A model generated the notes under the pieces. The model was not told where the DNA came from, searched no databases, and saw only the letters and a list, made by a program, of their open reading frames with translations. This document shows positions 32,267 through 41,891 of a DNA stretch of 64,000 bases, one piece after another (the first letter of the stretch is position 1; each line of letters begins with the position of its first letter). A program made the translations under genes and the position numbers. Source of the DNA: Halobacteriales archaeon QS_1_68_20 (lineage in GTDB: Archaea > Halobacteriota > Halobacteria > Halobacteriales > PXRE01); assembly GCA_003021085.1 (NCBI GenBank), contig PXRE01000009.1, forward strand, positions 1 through 64,000, given 5' to 3'.

Positions 32267-33847
32267 GTGGCGATTCCCGTGACCTGGCGGGTCGACTGGA
32301 AGGCGAGCGTCTCGCTCGTCGGGACGGTCGTGAAGTACCTCGCAGCGACGATGCTGGTGCCGCTGGTCGTGGCCGTCGTCTACGGCGAGGACGTCCGGGC
32401 GTTCGTGGGGTCTATCGCCATCGCCGTCGGCCTCGGCCTGGCGCTGGAACGACTCGATCCGGACCCCGACATCGGCGCCCGGGAGGCGCTTGTCCTGGTG
32501 GCAGTGGCGTGGCTGGCCGCGGCTGTCGTGGGCGCGATCCCGTACCTCCTGGCGGGGTTCGGAACGCAGTCGACGGTCGGATTCGACCCCTCCTCGGTGA
32601 GCGCGGCGATCACTTCGATAGTCAACGCGCTGTTCGAGTCCACCTCCGGGGTCACCACCACGGGGGCGACCGTCCTCGCCGAGATCAAATTCGAGCGCCA
32701 CTCACACGCGCTGTTGATGTGGCGGCAACTCTCCCAGTGGCTCGGCGGGATGGGGATCATCGTCCTGATGATCGCCATCCTGCCCGAACTGGCTGTCAAC
32801 GGCGCGCAGTTGATGCAGTCCGAAGCGCCCGGGCCGGAACTCCAGAAACTCACGCCCCGCATCGTCGAGACGGCGCGGGCGCTGTGGCTGATCTACTTCG
32901 GGTTCACCCTCCTGTACGTCGCCATTCTCTACAGTCTCCACCTGGCGGGGATGGCGCCGGATATGGGGCTGTACAACTCGGTCGCCCACGGGTTCACGAC
33001 GCTCCCGACGGGCGGGTTCTCGCCGGAGGCCCAGAGCATCGCCGCGTTCCGGCCCATCGTCCAGTGGGTCGTCATCCCGTTCATGTTCGTCGCGGGCGTG
33101 AACTTCGCGCTGTTCTGGCACGTCGTCCACGGCGAGGTCCGCGAACTGGCCGACGACGTGGAGTTTCGCACCTACGCCGGGGCGGTCGCGGCGTTCACAG
33201 CGGTGCTGGCGGTGTTGCTGGTCGGGGGTGCTGCACCCGCCGAGGGTCTCGGCGGCGTCGGCGGCGGCGTCAGTGAGAACGCCTTCCGGCAGGCGACGTT
33301 CCAGATCAGTTCCCTGCTGAACTCCACGGGGTACGCGACCAGCGATTTCGCCAACTGGAGCACCCACGCCCAGATGGTCCTGCTGTTCGCCATGTTCGTC
33401 GGCGGGTCCGCGGGGTCGACCGGCGGGGGGATCAAGGTCGTCCGGTGGCTGGTCGTCGTCAAGACGGTCCGTAGGGAACTGTTCGTGACCGCCAACCCCA
33501 ACACCGTCCGTCCGGTCAGGCTGGCCGGGAACGTCGTCGACGAGGACGCCATCCGGGCCATCATGTCCTTTACGTTGCTATACCTGGTCCTGTTCGGCGT
33601 CTCGGGGGTGTTCTTCGCGCTGGACTCGGCCCGGATCGGCCACGACCTGACCGCGCTGGAGTCGTTCAGCGCGGCGCTGGCGACCATCGGGAACATCGGC
33701 CCGGGGTTCGGCTCGCTGGGCCCGTTCGGGAGCTACCTGCAGTTCTCGAATCTCTCGAAACTCTGGATGGTGTTTTTGATGTGGGTCGGGCGCCTGGAGA
33801 TCGTGCCGGTGCTGGCGTTGTTCGTCGGGGGGCTTGATCGGTCGTAG
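32267..33847 (+). CDS. trkH: Trk-type potassium uptake membrane subunit
   Basis: 526 residues, GTG start at 32267 (the ATG at 32259 is out of frame). Four pore repeats of the TrkH/KtrB fold are visible from their filter regions: GVTTTGATV, TTLPTGGFSP, STGYATSD and GNIGPGFG. About ten membrane segments, C-terminal GRLEIVPVLALF. It imports K+ in partnership with TrkA-type cytoplasmic gating subunits, present at 40560-41891. Halobacteria keep molar K+ inside, so such genes are important. Confidence 0.93.
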   Translation: MAIPVTWRVDWKASVSLVGTVVKYLAATMLVPLVVAVVYGEDVRAFVGSIAIAVGLGLALERLDPDPDIGAREALVLVAVAWLAAAVVGAIPYLLAGFGTQSTVGFDPSSVSAAITSIVNALFESTSGVTTTGATVLAEIKFERHSHALLMWRQLSQWLGGMGIIVLMIAILPELAVNGAQLMQSEAPGPELQKLTPRIVETARALWLIYFGFTLLYVAILYSLHLAGMAPDMGLYNSVAHGFTTLPTGGFSPEAQSIAAFRPIVQWVVIPFMFVAGVNFALFWHVVHGEVRELADDVEFRTYAGAVAAFTAVLAVLLVGGAAPAEGLGGVGGGVSENAFRQATFQISSLLNSTGYATSDFANWSTHAQMVLLFAMFVGGSAGSTGGGIKVVRWLVVVKTVRRELFVTANPNTVRPVRLAGNVVDEDAIRAIMSFTLLYLVLFGVSGVFFALDSARIGHDLTALESFSAALATIGNIGPGFGSLGPFGSYLQFSNLSKLWMVFLMWVGRLEIVPVLALFVGGLDRS

Positions 33848-33857
33848 GTGGAGTTAG

Positions 33858-34010
33858 TTAATTCTGGTTTGGGTCGGTTTCGTGGGTTAGTTCCTCGTAC
33901 GTCCGGTCGTCGACCTGGTGGCCGCAGGGCTGGAGGGCGTAGGTGATCGGGTCGACGCGGTCGATCCGTTCTACCGGTCGGTCGCAGATCGGGCAGGTTT
34001 CGTCGGGCAT
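33858..34010 (-). CDS. Small zinc-ribbon-like protein
   Basis: 50 residues: DETCPICDRPVERIDRVDPI, then QPCGHQVDD and an acidic tail. One C-x2-C knuckle plus C-x-H could bind zinc. It is divergent from the winged-helix gene at 34181. Upstream TATA-like sequences lie about 75-110 bases away, so a leader is likely. Function unknown. Confidence 0.65.
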   Translation of the reverse strand: MPDETCPICDRPVERIDRVDPITYALQPCGHQVDDRTYEELTHETDPNQN

Positions 34011-34101
34011 CTGTTGGGGGTCTCTCGCGTTTTCTCGGGTGCGTTCACGGTGGGTTCCACGGTGCTGGATTACATGCTCCTTGTTTAAGTATCTAAGGTA
34101 T

Positions 34102-34118
34102 ATCCTACGGGATAGGAT
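34102..34118. promoter_or_regulatory. Palindrome in the divergent promoter region
   Basis: ATCCTA, five bases, TAGGAT. It lies between the divergent genes at 34010 and 34181, next to AT-rich promoter boxes (TTTAAGTAT, ATTATATG). It is a candidate operator for the phage-repressor-like winged-helix protein downstream. Confidence 0.4.
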
Positions 34119-34180
34119 TATATGATCTATCCATGGGCTAAACCCGCACGAATAAACGGCTGTTTCGTGATTGTTCGGGT

Positions 34181-34492
34181 ATGCGTCCCCGGGTGCCGTG
34201 GATGAACGAGGTCGACACCGCGATCCTGGAGTACTTCGCGGAACTCGGCGCGGTGGACGGCTCCCGGGTTTCCCTTGCACCGACGCCGCTGTACGTGAAC
34301 CTCGTCCAGCGGATGGGCGTGGTCGACGTCCAGCCGAATACTCTGTCCCGGCGAATGAGCAGGTTGGCGGCGATGGGCTTTCTGGAGAAGATCGACGAGA
34401 AGCGGGGCTACTACTGTCTGACCGAGATGGGTGAGGCGTTTCTGGCGGGTGAGCTGGATGCCGAGGACATTCCGCGGCCCGAAGACAACTAA
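34181..34492 (+). CDS. PhiH1-repressor-like winged-helix protein
   Basis: 103 residues: VPWMNEVDTAILEYFAELGA, LYVNLVQRMGVVDVQPNTLS and RRMSRLAAMGFLEKIDEKRG make a compact winged helix like the phage phiH repressor family common in haloarchaea. ATG 34181 is about 28 bases after an AATAAA box, a leaderless start. It may repress itself and its divergent neighbour through the palindrome at 34102-34118. Confidence 0.85.
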   Translation: MRPRVPWMNEVDTAILEYFAELGAVDGSRVSLAPTPLYVNLVQRMGVVDVQPNTLSRRMSRLAAMGFLEKIDEKRGYYCLTEMGEAFLAGELDAEDIPRPEDN

Positions 34493-34579
34493 CGTACTCG
34501 TAGTGCCGTTCTGATCAGTTTGTCAAGATGGACATGGCTGGTGGGCAGGTTTTTCTTGTAGGCGTGTGGGCGGGGAGAT

Positions 34580-36199
34580 ATGGTTACTGATAATTTTCAA
34601 GATTGGACCTACGTCCCAGATGACGTACCAGAGGGGCGGTGTGGACTCACGACCGATTATCCGGGGATACCACCCACCCCCGGTGAAATAACCTGCTGGC
34701 GGCCATCTTAGAACGATTACGATAGATGTATTTGGCATGCACAAGCCAAAGAAAAACCAGCCGACGAGTTGATCAACTCCCGAAAAGAATTTCCAGAACG
34801 ACTAGATTTTGCAATACTTGAACGGGCTAAACTCAAGGACAACATTTCCTTTGAAGATTGTATACTTTATGGGTCCGATCTCAAGGGAGCAGACCTCAAA
34901 GGTGTCGTATTTAAGGAGGCTTCCCTTGAGTATGCTAATCTCAGTGAAGCTGAACTCCGGAGGGGAGATTTCAGAAATGCTCATCTTGTAAAGGCTGAAT
35001 TGAATGGTGCAAATCTACACAATGCTAATTTCACTAATTCCTCACTTATTTTGGCCGAGCTTCGTGATGCTATTCTCGTCCGTACCAACCTTTCTCAAGC
35101 TCGTCTTGGAGGCGCGGACTTTACCGAAGCACATCTTCCCAAAGTGAACTTTACTGAATCTTCTCTCGGAAAAGCAAATTTCACTAATGCTGACTTGATC
35201 TCTAGCCGATTCAAGAAAACAAACCTCAAAGATGCGATTCTTGAGGATGTCCGTTTGGAAAACACTTTCATGGATAAGGCGAATCTAGAACGGGCGAACT
35301 TTACAAGAGCTAACCTTTTCGATGCAGATCTTACAGGAACAGCGCTCTACGGCGCCGTCCTCGACAACGTCAAAGTCAACACTAACACTGAGTTCGGCGA
35401 CCACTACCCCGACGACGGCGACGTCGAGAAGGCCGCCTGGACCCTCTCGCAAATCGAGGATCTCGCCCGCCAGAACGCCCTTCACGGGCAGGTCCGGTCA
35501 GCGTTCACCAAACGGAAAGACCGCCGCCGGAACCACTACTGGCAGAACTCGAAGATCCCCGGCTGGATCCGCCGCCCCGTCCACCGTCTGAAGGCCACTG
35601 GCAACCAGGCCACGACGTGGCTGGTCAGTCGCCTCCGCTCGTGGGTCAACGAGGACACCGAGGACGACCCTGATACCGAGGCCGACGCCAGCGACGACGC
35701 GACGTCCGCCGACCTCGACGAGTCGTCCGACGAACCCGGACCTGACGTGACCCCCGTCGCGGAACCACTTTCCAACTCGGACGAGTCTAACGACCTGACC
35801 AACTGGGAACGCTGGATGAACACTGGCAAGTGGGCGTGGCTGGCCATCACCGGGTCGACGACGCGCTACAGCGAGAGTCCCCGCCGGGTCGTCGTCACGT
35901 CGCTGGTCGTGGTCCTCGTGGCCGCGGTGCTGTATCCATTGCTGGGTGGCGTGGCGATCACCACCGAGGGCACCCAGTTGACGCTGTTCGAGCCCCTGGG
36001 GACGCCGCTGGACCAACTGCCGGGCGGCACCTGGCTGGCGAACTTCTATTTCAGCCTGGTGACGTTCACGACGCTGGGCTACGGGGACATCCAGCCCGCC
36101 AGCGCGCCCGCGCAGTTGCTGGCCGGCATCGAGTCGTTCCTCGGTGCGGCCCTGATGGCCCTGCTGGTCGCGGTGCTCGCAAGGCGGATCACGCGCTAA
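34580..36199 (+). pseudogene. Pentapeptide-repeat potassium channel, interrupted by an in-frame TAG
   Basis: The frame starts MVTDNFQDWTYVPDDVPEGR and continues TCWRPS, then TAG at 34709-34711, then NDYDRCIWHAQAKEKPADEL and on without change of frame. A single base change from TGG (Trp) would restore it. Residues 80-250 are pentapeptide repeats (ADLKG, ANLSE, ANLHN, ANFTN, ADLIS, ANLFD). After a charged Asp-rich linker come two membrane helices flanking the K+ filter TLGYGD. If the TAG is real, only translation from TTG 34769 would make the channel. The repeat half is AT-rich, the channel half GC-rich. Confidence 0.8.
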
Positions 36200-36256
36200 C
36201 TCTCCTCCGCTCCAATCCCACGGCCCTTGCTACCTTCACGAGATACCGAACAACGA

Positions 36257-37510
36257 TTAGCGGTCGTACAGCCGGAACGACGAACTCCGTTCGATCACGT
36301 CGGTCGGATTCGGCAATTCACTCGGCGGCCGTTCGACCACGTCCATGACCTCGCCGGCCCGGAAGACCCGGTTCTGTTCGTTGCCCGTGATCTCGGTCAC
36401 GACGCCGTCCGCGACCAGGCGCTCGACCGCCCGGTTCGCCGTCTGGTAGGACCTCCCGATCAACTCCGCGGCCTCCGACACCGTGAAGTACGGTTCGGCG
36501 AACATCTCGGTCGCCAGCAACCGGACCGAATCGGCCTCGTCGACGTACCGCCGTTCGTACTCGCGGCGCTTCTGTACGAGGAGTTTCGCGCGCACGAACG
36601 ACTCTTCCGACTGTCGGCGAAGCCCCTCCAGGAAGAACTGGAGCCACTCTTTCCAGGCACCCTGCTCGCTGACTGCCAGCAAGAGATCCGTGTACTCGTC
36701 ACGGTGTCGTTTGAAGTACGAACTCGGGTACAGAACGGGGTTTACCAGGAGGTCTGTACAGAGTAGCATCAAGACGACGAACAGGCGGCCCACTCTGCCG
36801 TTGCCGTCCTTGAACGGGTGAATCGTCTCGAACTGGTAGTGGGCGAGCGCCACGTCGATCAGGTCCGGCCACCCGCGACCGGTCCGGACGTACTCCAGCA
36901 ACGACTCCATCTTCCCCTCGACGGCGCTGGGTGGCGGCGGGACGAACCTGACCTGCGTACGGCCGTACTCGTCGGTCTCCTCGATGTGGACGAGATCGGG
37001 GCGGAACTCGCCGGGGAGCGGGTCCTCCTCGTCGGTCCGACCGCGGTCCATCAGCGTCTCGTGGAGGTCCTGGACCAGCCCAATTGTGAGGCTCTCCCGT
37101 GACCGCCCTGCGGTGTCGAGGTAATCGAGCGCCGCTTCCAGCGCCCGGACGTAGTTTTTCGCCTCGCGGACGTCGCGCTCGTGTTCGCTCTCTGGGGGTT
37201 CGTCCAACTCGTCGACTTCCAGTCGATAGATGTCCGAGACGGTCACCGCAGTCCCCTCGATCTGGGAAGACTGTTCGGCTTCTTTGTAGACGAACGAACT
37301 GAACACCGCGCTCGGGTTCTCGACCTCACTCACCAGGCCGTCGAGTCGTCCGAGCGCGTGCATCGCCCGGGCGAGTACGACGGTCACGTCTTCGCCCAGG
37401 TCGATGGTCGGTGGGAGGTTATCGGGAAAGTACGCTCGTGAGAGATGCTTGTCTTCCCGAAGTGGCATGTAATGGCCCGGGGCATCGGGCAGGCGATACT
37501 CCTCTCCCAT
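36257..37510 (-). CDS. Fic-family protein with inhibitory motif and C-terminal winged helix
   Basis: 417 residues. The Fic core motif HPFKDGNGRVGR is complete at residues 231-242, so AMP transfer to a target hydroxyl is expected. An autoinhibitory-type sequence SSQIEGT (residues 81-87) precedes it, which places it with self-inhibited Fic proteins. The C-terminal 90 residues look like a winged helix (YFTVSEAAELIGRSYQTANR). It may act as a regulator or toxin-like modifier. It converges on the pentapeptide channel gene. Confidence 0.9.
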   Translation of the reverse strand: MGEEYRLPDAPGHYMPLREDKHLSRAYFPDNLPPTIDLGEDVTVVLARAMHALGRLDGLVSEVENPSAVFSSFVYKEAEQSSQIEGTAVTVSDIYRLEVDELDEPPESEHERDVREAKNYVRALEAALDYLDTAGRSRESLTIGLVQDLHETLMDRGRTDEEDPLPGEFRPDLVHIEETDEYGRTQVRFVPPPPSAVEGKMESLLEYVRTGRGWPDLIDVALAHYQFETIHPFKDGNGRVGRLFVVLMLLCTDLLVNPVLYPSSYFKRHRDEYTDLLLAVSEQGAWKEWLQFFLEGLRRQSEESFVRAKLLVQKRREYERRYVDEADSVRLLATEMFAEPYFTVSEAAELIGRSYQTANRAVERLVADGVVTEITGNEQNRVFRAGEVMDVVERPPSELPNPTDVIERSSSFRLYDR

Positions 37511-37803
37511 TACCCCGAAAATCGGAACGGTCTGAGTAAAGAGTTCTGCATTCTGCTTGAATTGCGGGGGGTAAAGCAGGGGGTGTATTTCACGGGGGTA
37601 ATAAACAGGGTTGAATCAGAAGGCTACATCGGACGGATTTCGGGAGGTGTGTTTCTCCTATGTGAACCTCGACGATTTCCCATGCGATATGAGACTGTCA
37701 TTATAGTGGGGCCGTTCGAAGACATCATCGGGTCGGAGACGCTATCGAGGGGTAGTGTCCCACTGCACGAATCGCTTTTCGCCCCCGCGTACGAATGCTA
37801 TCG
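37511..37803. other. AT-richer spacer
   Basis: Between the Fic gene and the antitoxin gene. Lower GC than its surroundings and no convincing gene except the possible toxin remnant at 37725-37817. Confidence 0.4.
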
Positions 37804-37817
37804 TCAAGACACATCAT
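37725..37817 (-). pseudogene. Possible PIN-toxin remnant
   Basis: Overlaps the antitoxin stop in the ATGA-like way of VapBC operons. It begins MMCLDDS, which resembles the first strand of VapC-type PIN toxins, and then runs into 23 unrelated codons and a stop. If so, the toxin has been cut after its first strand. Very short, so this is an inference. Confidence 0.25.
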
Positions 37818-38034
37818 CTATAGAGGTTTCGCCTCCGTCGAACGACTCGTTCAACTCACGATCCGTCCGCTCGACGTGTTCGACGATCCCATCGTCGGCG
37901 AAGCCACCTGGTTCTTTCAGGTCGCGCTCCCGGCGGGCGAGCCTGTTCAAAAACTCGTCCCAACTCTCGTCGTCTCCTTTTAGAGCGGACAGTGTGGCTT
38001 TCATATCCTCGGAGACGCGGATTGTGGGACTCAT
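37804..38034 (-). CDS. VapB/RelB-like antitoxin
   Basis: 76 residues: SPTIRVSEDMKATLSALKGD then ESWDEFLNRLARRERD and a Glu/Asp-rich tail. The N-terminal strand plus two helices suit a ribbon-helix-helix or AbrB-like antitoxin of the haloarchaeal type. No full toxin is adjacent; a remnant may overlap its stop. Confidence 0.65.
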   Translation of the reverse strand: MSPTIRVSEDMKATLSALKGDDESWDEFLNRLARRERDLKEPGGFADDGIVEHVERTDRELNESFDGGETSIDDVS

Positions 38035-38108
38035 GGGCAGACGTTGGACAACGTATGGAGTAATCGTTTCGGTGATCCCGGTGACGATGCGCCCGCCCTT
38101 CCATTATC

Positions 38109-38603
38109 ATGGAGTCCCCAACGACGGATATGGCCGGGCCGATCACGCAGACCGCGTCACTGCGGGGTGCCGAGGAACTCCTCGTAGAGCGCGACCTGCT
38201 CTCGAACCTGCAGGCCGCTATCGAGGACCTGGCGCCCGGCTTCGCTGCCGACGACGCTGGAGAGCCGGCCCTGAAGGCCGTCCTGCGGGAGTACGGCTGG
38301 GACGAGACGGTCGTCCCGGTCGCCGCCGAGAACCAGCCGCGGTTCGACGGGGTCCAGGACCGCGTCGCGCTCGAACACGAGGCCCGCGAGCAGATGAACG
38401 CCCGGTCGCACCTGCTCTTCCTCGAAGCGGCCTACCGGGAGCGGGCGATCGACGCCAGCGTGATGGTCGTCCCGACGCGTCAGCACACCGGCGGGGCAAC
38501 CTTCGGCCGGGTCCTGAACGAGACCACCGGCGACGGACGACTGTTCACCTACCACTTCCCGCTGTTCACGCCGCTGTACCTCGTGGAGTACGAACCACCG
38601 TAG
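38109..38603 (+). CDS. Possible BglII/BstYI-like restriction-fold protein
   Basis: 164 residues. The segment FDGVQDRVALEHEAREQMNA then ARSHLLFLEAAYRERAID resembles the catalytic D...ExE region of the BglII endonuclease family, followed by SVMVVPTRQHTGGATFGRVL. No methyltransferase gene is adjacent, so either the enzyme is inactive, it is an orphan solitary protein, or it has another role. Family placement is tentative. Confidence 0.4.
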   Translation: MESPTTDMAGPITQTASLRGAEELLVERDLLSNLQAAIEDLAPGFAADDAGEPALKAVLREYGWDETVVPVAAENQPRFDGVQDRVALEHEAREQMNARSHLLFLEAAYRERAIDASVMVVPTRQHTGGATFGRVLNETTGDGRLFTYHFPLFTPLYLVEYEPP

Positions 38604-38650
38604 CGACGCTACTGCGTCGGTCTTCCAGCGGTTCGATTCCAGAACGTCGC

Positions 38651-40291
38651 TCACTCAACGAACGCCGCTTCGAACGCCCGCACGTCCTCGTCGGTCCCAG
38701 CCACGACCACCTCGTCGCCGTGCTCGAACACGAACGACTCGGCGTCCAGCGCCGTGATCGTCTGCTCCCCCCGCTCGACCGCCAAAACGGTACACCCCGT
38801 TCGCTCGCGGACGTCGGCCCCGGCCAGGGTCTGCCCGGCCAGCCCCGCGGCGGCCAGCTTGACCACCTCGATCCGGGTGTCGAACGCCAGCACCTCCTCG
38901 TCCTCGAACACCGTCGTCGCCAGCATCCGCCCGCTGGTCGTCGCCAGCGACTGGACGTAGTCCGCGCCCGCGCGATACAGCTTGGGGACGCTGCCCTCCT
39001 CGTTGGCCCGCGCCAGGATGGTGAGGTCGGGGTCGAGATCCCGCGCGACCAGCGTCGTGAAGACGGCCGTCGTGTCGTCGCCGACCGTCACGATCACCGT
39101 GGCCGCGTCCGCGATGCCCGCTTCCCGGAGCGCCGCCGGGTCGCAGGCGTCGCCGACCACGTCGACGCCCTGCTTGTCCTCGACGTCCAGCACGGTCACC
39201 TCGGTGCTGGTGTCGTCGAACATCGACGCCGTCACGGTGCCGGCGTCGCCGTACCCGGCGATGACCACTCGCCGGGGCGCGAACGGTTCGACGGGTGCCG
39301 TCGCGGCGTCCCGGAACGCGTCGATCCGGGCGGGTTCGCCCGCGACGAGCAGGCGGGTATCCTCGCCGAGTTCCCGCTCGGGGTCGACCGCCGTCTCGAA
39401 GGTGCCGTTCGTCCAGGCGCCGATCACGTCGACCCCGAACCGCTCGCGGAGGCCGGCCGCTGCGACGGACTGCCCCCAGAGGTCGCTCCCGCGCTCGACG
39501 GTCAGTTCCACGAGTTCGATGTCGTCGCCGACGTCGACGCCCTCCCGGCCGACGGCCGCCACCGCGGTCGGGACCTGCCTGGCGAGGCTCTCGCCGAGCA
39601 ACCGCCGCGGCGACAGCACGTCGTCCGCCCCGGCGATCCGGTGGTACGTCTCAAGCTCGGCGTCCTCCACGAGCGTCACGATCTGCACGTCCGGGTTCAC
39701 CTCCCGGGCCGACAGGACGACGCTCGCGGTCACGTCGTCGGGGGCGTCCGCGACGACCGCTCGCGCCGTCCCCACGCTCGCCCGTTCGAGGACGTCCGTT
39801 GACTCGGGGTCGCCGTGGACGACCCGGTAGTCGGCCTCGTGGAGTTCGGTGGCGGTCTCGGCGTCCGCGACGACCACGACGTACTCGCGGTCGCGCGATC
39901 GCAACTCGGAGACGAACGCCTCGCCGCGGGCGGTGTGCCCGCAGATGACGACGTGGTCCGCCAGGTCGGGGGCCTCCGTCGGGACCGACGGCGACAGCGC
40001 CGACCGGAGCCACGGGACCGCGAACACGTCCGCGGCGGTGAGGATCAACCCGATCCCGGCCAGTTGCATGGTGATCATCAGCAGGTTCATCTGGGGCGTC
40101 GTCCACGGGGCGTCCTCGCCGTATCCGGTGGTCGTGAAGCTCTGGACGACGACCTCCAGCGAGCGGTACAGCGGCCGCTCGCGGCCCTCCCAGGCCGACA
40201 TCCCGAAGTCGTACACGAGCGTGAACACGACCGTCGTCACGACGACCAGCGCGAAGTAGTAGACCGGCCGCCTGGACCGCCACCGCGCCAT
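38651..40291 (-). CDS. Potassium channel with two TrkA-N/TrkA-C (RCK) modules
   Basis: 546 residues. Two membrane helices flank the filter TTTGYGEDAPW (residues about 50-60). Then come two NAD-binding Rossmann modules: VVICGHTARGEAFVSELRSR near residue 120 and VVIAGYGDAGTVTASMFDDT near residue 345, each followed by a C-terminal TrkA-C domain. The layout resembles MthK-type ligand-gated channels, here with duplicated RCK domains. The start at ATG 40291 precedes the first helix. It is divergent from trkA. Confidence 0.9.
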   Translation of the reverse strand: MARWRSRRPVYYFALVVVTTVVFTLVYDFGMSAWEGRERPLYRSLEVVVQSFTTTGYGEDAPWTTPQMNLLMITMQLAGIGLILTAADVFAVPWLRSALSPSVPTEAPDLADHVVICGHTARGEAFVSELRSRDREYVVVVADAETATELHEADYRVVHGDPESTDVLERASVGTARAVVADAPDDVTASVVLSAREVNPDVQIVTLVEDAELETYHRIAGADDVLSPRRLLGESLARQVPTAVAAVGREGVDVGDDIELVELTVERGSDLWGQSVAAAGLRERFGVDVIGAWTNGTFETAVDPERELGEDTRLLVAGEPARIDAFRDAATAPVEPFAPRRVVIAGYGDAGTVTASMFDDTSTEVTVLDVEDKQGVDVVGDACDPAALREAGIADAATVIVTVGDDTTAVFTTLVARDLDPDLTILARANEEGSVPKLYRAGADYVQSLATTSGRMLATTVFEDEEVLAFDTRIEVVKLAAAGLAGQTLAGADVRERTGCTVLAVERGEQTITALDAESFVFEHGDEVVVAGTDEDVRAFEAAFVE

Positions 40292-40428
40292 GGGCGTACG
40301 TGCCCGTGGGCGCCCGTCAAGGTACTGGTTTGGGAGCACGCGTGACGGTCTTCGACGGCACGTCACCGGCCGCCGTCCTGTCACCCGTCGTAACGCACTT
40401 CCGGGTGCCGGCGATAGATGGACCAACG

Positions 40429-40569
40429 ATGACCGAGGAAAGCGGTCCGTCGGTTCCGGGTCGGTCGGGTCCGGACCGGTCACGTCCGGATCGGTCGGGT
40501 TTGGATCAGTCGGTTCCGGGTCAGCCGGGTCTGGATCAATCGGATCGGGGGTGGTCGCCGTGCGCGTGA
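40429..40569 (+). CDS. Short Pro/Gly/Ser-repeat ORF before trkA
   Basis: 46 codons, MTEESGPSVPGRSGPDRSRP and so on. It is built almost entirely from the 15-base repeats at 40452-40541 and its TGA overlaps the trkA start region. All three forward frames are open across the repeats, so coding here is doubtful. It might act as a leader peptide for trkA. Confidence 0.25.
   Translation: MTEESGPSVPGRSGPDRSRPDRSGLDQSVPGQPGLDQSDRGWSPCA
40452..40541. repeat. 15-base minisatellite before trkA
   Basis: Six consecutive 15-base units, consensus near GGGTCCGGATCGGTC, with a partial seventh. In the trkA frame they would code Gly/Ser pentapeptides (GSVGS), on the other strand Asp-Pro repeats (DPTDP). Located 10-110 bases before the trkA start. 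Confidence 0.85.
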
Positions 40570-41891
40570 TCGTGGTCGGCGCGGGCGAGGTCGGCCGGTC
40601 CATCGCGGAGAACCTCTCGGAGGGCCACGACGTCGTCGTGATCGAGCGCAACGAAGCCCTCGTAGACGACCTCACCTACGAGGCCGACGTCCTGGCGATC
40701 CACGGCGATGGGACCGATCTAGACGTGCTCCGGGAGGCCGGCGTCGAGGAGGCCGACATGCTGATCGCCTCGACCGACGGCGACGAGACGAACATCGTCG
40801 CCTGCGGGGTCGCCAAGACCGCGGGCGACGTGTTCACGGTCGCGCGAGTCAAGCGCCGGGACCTGCTGCACACCTGGCAGGGCGCCCAGCACGCCTTCAA
40901 CGTCGACTTCATGGTCAGTTCTGACCTGCTGACCGCCGAGGCGATCCTCCGCATCTCCGGACTCCCCGGGTCCATCGACGTAGACACATTCGCCGGCGGC
41001 CTCGTCCGGATGGCGGAGTTCGAACTCGGCGAGGACAGCCCCGTGACCGGCCAGACCGTCCGGGAGGCCGACCGGTGGAACTCGCTGACGTTCGCCGCGG
41101 TCATCCGCGACGACGAGGTGGTCATCCCCCGCGGGGACACCGTGATGGACGCGGGCGACCGCGTGGTCGTCATCGGCAGTCCCGAATCGATCCAAGAATT
41201 CGCCGGTGCGGTCACCGCCAGCGTGGACGATGCCGACGACGTCGTGATCGTCGGCGGAACGGAGGTCGGCTACCAGACCGCGCGACTGTTCACGGAACAC
41301 GGCTTCCGCCCGCGGTTGATCGACCGGGACCGCGAGCGGGCCCGCGAACTGGCCGAGGCCCTCCCGAAGGCGACGGTCCTCCACGGCGACGCGACCGACC
41401 TCACCCTCCTGAAAGACGAGCGCGTGGGCGACGCGGACGTCGTCGTGACGACGCTGGAGAGTGACGAGGAGAACCTCCTCGTGGCCCTGCTGGCCGAACG
41501 GATCGGCGTCGGCCGAACCGTCTCCGTCGTCCAGCGGGTCGCGTACGCCGACCTCTTCGAGACGGTCGGCGTCGACGTCGCGGTCAACCCACGCGAGGAG
41601 ACCGCCGAGGAGATCGTCCGGTTCACGCGCACCGGCCAGACCGAGAAGATCGCTATGCTGGAACACGACCTGGCGGAGGTGCTGGAGATCGAGATCTTGC
41701 CGGAAAGCGTGCTCGCGGACCGCCGCATCGCCGACGCGATGGCCGACCTCCCCGACGGCGTCGTGATCGGGTCCGTGACCCGCGCCGGAGAACTGATCAC
41801 GCCACGCGGCGGAACGACGCTGGAACCCGGCGATCACGTCGTCCTGTTCGTGGAGGCGTCCAGCCTCGACGAGGTCGTCGACGCGGTCTGA
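40560..41891 (+). CDS. trkA: Trk potassium uptake regulatory subunit TrkA
   Basis: 443 residues with two NAD-binding TrkA-N domains (MRVIVVGAGEVGRSIAENLS at the N-terminus; DVVIVGGTEVGYQTARLFTE near residue 225), each followed by a TrkA-C domain (TGQTVREADRW; LPESVLADRRIADAMADLPD). It gates TrkH-type transporters by nucleotide binding. GTG at 40560 is chosen; GTG 40551 in frame is possible. The channel gene at 38651 is divergent and TrkH is 7 kb upstream. Confidence 0.92.
   Translation: MRVIVVGAGEVGRSIAENLSEGHDVVVIERNEALVDDLTYEADVLAIHGDGTDLDVLREAGVEEADMLIASTDGDETNIVACGVAKTAGDVFTVARVKRRDLLHTWQGAQHAFNVDFMVSSDLLTAEAILRISGLPGSIDVDTFAGGLVRMAEFELGEDSPVTGQTVREADRWNSLTFAAVIRDDEVVIPRGDTVMDAGDRVVVIGSPESIQEFAGAVTASVDDADDVVIVGGTEVGYQTARLFTEHGFRPRLIDRDRERARELAEALPKATVLHGDATDLTLLKDERVGDADVVVTTLESDEENLLVALLAERIGVGRTVSVVQRVAYADLFETVGVDVAVNPREETAEEIVRFTRTGQTEKIAMLEHDLAEVLEIEILPESVLADRRIADAMADLPDGVVIGSVTRAGELITPRGGTTLEPGDHVVLFVEASSLDEVVDAV

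Follow-up and report, generated by a model that had tools for sequence, protein, structure and literature searches.

Does an in-frame TAG near the start of an otherwise open gene for a pentapeptide-repeat K+ channel mark a broken gene, a miscalled base, a decoded codon or a start that simply lies further downstream? The question is raised by a locus within the window analyzed here, the whole 64,000-nucleotide (64 kb) stretch of Halobacteriales archaeon QS_1_68_20 DNA, where the forward-strand frame opened by the ATG at 34580 runs in phase through a TAG at codon 44 (34709-34711) and ends with a TAA at 36197-36199, exactly at the coordinates that the initial annotation had given. This interrupted frame amounts to 539 codons, with the TAG as its sole in-frame stop before the TAA, and under standard rules the longest ORF is one of 476 codons beginning with a TTG (34769). 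The openness of the frame after the TAG is more than chance would provide, because the 212 AT-rich codons 3' of it contain no stop in frame, whereas the other two forward frames have 7 and 20, and none of 2000 base shuffles of the post-TAG stretch stayed open. For the 43 codons 5' of the TAG, the probability of a chance opening is about 15%, but homology ties them to the rest of the gene: when 394 genomes of the order were searched, matches extended from the initial residues across the stop column (e.g., query 1-132, 41% identity, E=1.7e-30), and tblastn alignments with the relatives' loci cross that column in single pieces (e.g., query 1-311 for L031), which confirms the single conserved N-terminus that had been proposed for the two sides of the stop.

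The product had been called a pentapeptide-repeat K+ channel, and this identity is upheld by the match to the repeats (PF00805, 2.6e-46), modeled as a beta-helix, and by a C-terminal Ion_trans_2 pore (PF07885, 1.7e-13) with the TLGYGD K+ filter (Table 1). The residues of the N-terminal Cys/His knuckle are present as well, split by the TAG at codon 44 rather than lying in one uninterrupted frame, which is why the window gene is classed as a broken, not an intact, member of the haloarchaeal pentapeptide-repeat K+ channels. In a 22-sequence alignment, no variation is seen at C39, R41, C50, W52 and H53, and hardly any at C21; C21, C39, C50 and H53 would seem to form a metal-binding knuckle, and a search by sequence found no solved structure sharing it. 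An AlphaFold model built on the read-through sequence, with the TAG read as Trp, is confident for residues 41-70 (pLDDT ~93-95), which lead into the beta-helix. The Trp (TGG) suggested for the stop codon was recovered when homologues were aligned, being present at the stop column in 30 of the 38 distinct relatives, with R (2), Y, P, V, T, A and E in the remainder; a Trp at codon 44 is thus strongly favoured, yet not strictly required.

Table 1. Parts of the interrupted channel gene, in window coordinates.
Part	Position	Strand	Basis or remark
Upstream 43-codon fragment: ATG and first part of the knuckle (C21, C39)	34580..34708	+	Translation, homologue alignment
In-frame TAG, codon 44, at the column holding Trp in 30/38 relatives	34709..34711	+	Translation, relatives
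Remaining knuckle (C50, W52, H53), same phase beyond the stop	34712..34768	+	Translation, alignment
TTG, first possible in-frame restart	34769..34771	+	Next candidates (35000 onwards) lie inside the repeats
Pentapeptide-repeat beta-helix, AT-rich, GC3 ~0.37	34796..35389	+	PF00805 2.6e-46; model pLDDT ~93-98 over most
Helical linker with low-confidence acidic insert	35390..35878	+	Alignment, model
Two-helix K+ channel pore, TLGYGD filter, terminal TAA, GC-rich, GC3 ~0.89	35879..36199	+	PF07885 1.7e-13; alignment, model

The family to which this gene belongs comes in two forms: a short one of ~350 residues, GC-rich like its genome, which occurs in many haloarchaea and of which an intact knuckle-repeat-pore paralogue (L059, at C26) is present in the same genome, and a longer, often AT-rich, accessory one, plasmids among its locations, to which the window gene belongs. 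The proteins of Halorubrum sp. PV6 (WP_168654377.1) and Halalkalicoccus jeotgali (WP_081461395.1) likewise have a Cys/His knuckle, a pentapeptide beta-helix and a 2-TM pore in the same order, and the window protein shares ~28-29% identity with these haloarchaeal relatives over nearly the full length; the window gene differs from them in the nonsense codon within the knuckle, in the acidic linker insert, which none of the other 21 relatives in the alignment has, and in an internal GC3 step. This step, a sharp switch of codon composition inside one gene (GC3 from 0.37-0.49 to 0.89 near 35347), has similar counterparts in three other loci (L106, L108 and L115), which suggests recombination or module exchange between the repeat and pore halves. 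Three long-form relatives (L098, L109 and L112) have a pore without the TLGYGD filter and are thus, going by that motif, perhaps not K+ selective.

The most probable explanation of the TAG, and one held with some assurance, is that one nonsense change has interrupted an accessory channel gene; among the options listed in the initial annotation, the null mutation is the best supported. It is favoured by the lone in-frame stop at a column that is mostly Trp, by the ordinary use of TAG elsewhere, by the intact L059 and by relatives that are themselves broken. The copy on the complete plasmid 1 of Halalkalicoccus jeotgali, annotated there as three separate CDS, resembles the window gene in having a nonsense codon (TGA) at a knuckle Trp, that of the CxWH motif, but is more decayed, with a frameshift and additional stops besides (as in G076; L051/L118). 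Another relative (L055 in G304, 1536-1700) has a 39-base tandem duplication in the knuckle with a TGA at the CWRP Trp codon in each copy, two others carry two TAGs (L054 in G369) and one TAG (L056 in G003), and frameshifts were found in L097 and L119 (G068 and Halorussus caseinilyticus). As other members also carry stops or frameshifts, decay is common in this channel family. That such stops hit knuckle Trp codons needs no special explanation, since, of the 12 one-transition routes to a stop within the first 75 codons, 8 start from Trp codons (codon 44 counting for two). A programmed stop at a fixed site was considered too and rejected, as the relatives' stops fall at different codons. What counts against the nonsense reading is that the fully open downstream frame would also fit a truncated protein that is still in use.

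A rather unlikely alternative, albeit one to be taken seriously, is that the organism has an intact gene and that the TAG arose in its draft assembly (40 contigs, 81.5% complete), either through a base-call or consensus error or as a base from a minority strain. An error of this kind would show up in just this way, as one substitution at a conserved Trp in a frame that is otherwise open, and no independent copy of the locus could be brought to bear on it: among 98 genomes there was no DNA match beyond the own genome that would represent a close relative or a second assembly, and pattern scans of genome contigs and viral contigs returned no close relative of the locus either, which is why a consensus error is possible. 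Against an error, however, stand the true nonsense codons at Trp positions in relatives, that of the complete plasmid noted above among them, and a screen of the 64 kb window for further stops flanked by coding-like sequence, which gave three candidates (the end of hisS among them), none of which was convincing. With no second convincing interrupted frame, the assembly is not visibly error-prone within the window.

That the TAG is decoded (by suppression, as pyrrolysine or through programmed read-through) and a full-length protein made is the least credible of all the readings, even though frame and conservation do carry on past the stop. The stronger evidence against recoding comes from ordinary TAG termination: within the 64 kb window, from which alone TAG usage was judged, this codon closes the reading frames of HisS, oligopeptidase F, a 7TM histidine kinase, PS decarboxylase and IF-2 where their C-termini normally lie, and the Pfam domains of three of these proteins end close to it (residue 463 of 475 in HisS, 582 of 596 in oligopeptidase F and 552 of 556 in the histidine kinase). 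Neither of the two components expected for pyrrolysine decoding was detected in this 81.5% complete genome: the N-terminal domain of pylS was not found (a control genome gave a match), and none of the 37 detected tRNA genes has a CUA anticodon (32 anticodons were assigned with ARAGORN, those of four intron-bearing genes by eye from covariance alignments, and the 37th, that of L094, less certainly as Glu UUC by visual reading of its sequence). As the genome is incomplete, their absence is not proof. No relative examined has a TAG at the codon-44 column, and the RNA after the stop shows nothing unusual versus shuffles (z = 0.09), so that a downstream recoding hairpin was discarded. The recoding that the initial annotation had allowed for is thereby disfavoured; the gene is most likely just broken in an ordinary way, or miscalled, and its false annotation as a recoded one is avoided.

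It is also improbable that the gene is shortened yet working, with translation starting or restarting at the TTG to give a 476-residue channel without the knuckle. This TTG, 19 codons past the stop and the only in-frame start before the first repeats, is followed by an intact frame, and a restarted product would keep both repeats and pore; one relative (L012) does have repeats and a pore without the knuckle, although its filter has diverged. Such a product would, however, lose C50, W52 and H53, and no clear ribosome-binding sequence was seen by inspection ahead of the TTG. As all 21 aligned relatives begin upstream and carry the knuckle, the TTG appears not to be the ancestral start, and its proposed role as the native one is thus not favoured.

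Under the preferred reading, that of a nonsense mutation, the ancestor would have been an intact haloarchaeal channel with Cys/His knuckle, pentapeptide beta-helix and 2-TM K+ pore, in which one substitution at a conserved knuckle Trp codon would end translation after 43 codons. The change is probably real and, as the remaining frame is still open, probably recent, and the locus would yield little or no channel, bar a possible low-level restart at the TTG. In intact members, a ligand would be sensed by the beta-helix, capped by a knuckle that probably binds metal, and the helix would in turn gate the K+ pore. Tolerance of the loss may stem from the gene being accessory and the shorter paralogue intact.

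More interesting than the stop itself is the family, in which a Cys/His knuckle, a beta-helix and a K+ pore are combined in a manner resembling HalA, and which appears to be little described, a full-text literature search having found no paper on it. HalA, the Hailong anti-phage channel, is DNA-gated, binding and being gated by oligodeoxyadenylate. Both it and the window protein have a repeat region followed by a pore, and the read-through model matches the HalA fold (PDB 9nyi; 410 columns, E 2.1e-5), with a TM-score of only 0.24-0.35; its mode of action may be that of a beta-helix channel gated by a ligand. Haloarchaeal knuckle/beta-helix/2-TM channels more widely, L059 included, share this architectural resemblance to HalA. 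The window gene is not filed as HalA: its protein scores 50.9 bits with NCBIfam NF051894 versus a cut-off of 250, a whole-genome search with this model also remained below the cut-off, PADLOC gave no defence-family match for the channel, and no HalB nucleotidyltransferase-like gene was found among the immediate neighbours scanned with Pfam (TrkH, a small ORF without a Pfam match, a Fic protein and a TrkA-domain protein). Highly improbable is the notion that the channel is a toxic, gated defence effector of the HalA kind, that loss of the knuckle by nonsense at its Trp codons recurs as a selected on/off switch for it, and that a truncated or read-through product is used under stress.

As to the surroundings, the small ORF upstream (34181-34492) shows no conserved pairing with the channel, no similar gene being found near the relatives at E 1e-3. 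The K+ transport genes lie close together within 32267-40675 (TrkH at 32267-33847, the channel, and the TrkA-domain protein at 38651-40675), and the Fic protein gene (36257-37510), which is on the opposite strand to the channel, is matched by PADLOC as SoFic (2.9e-97).
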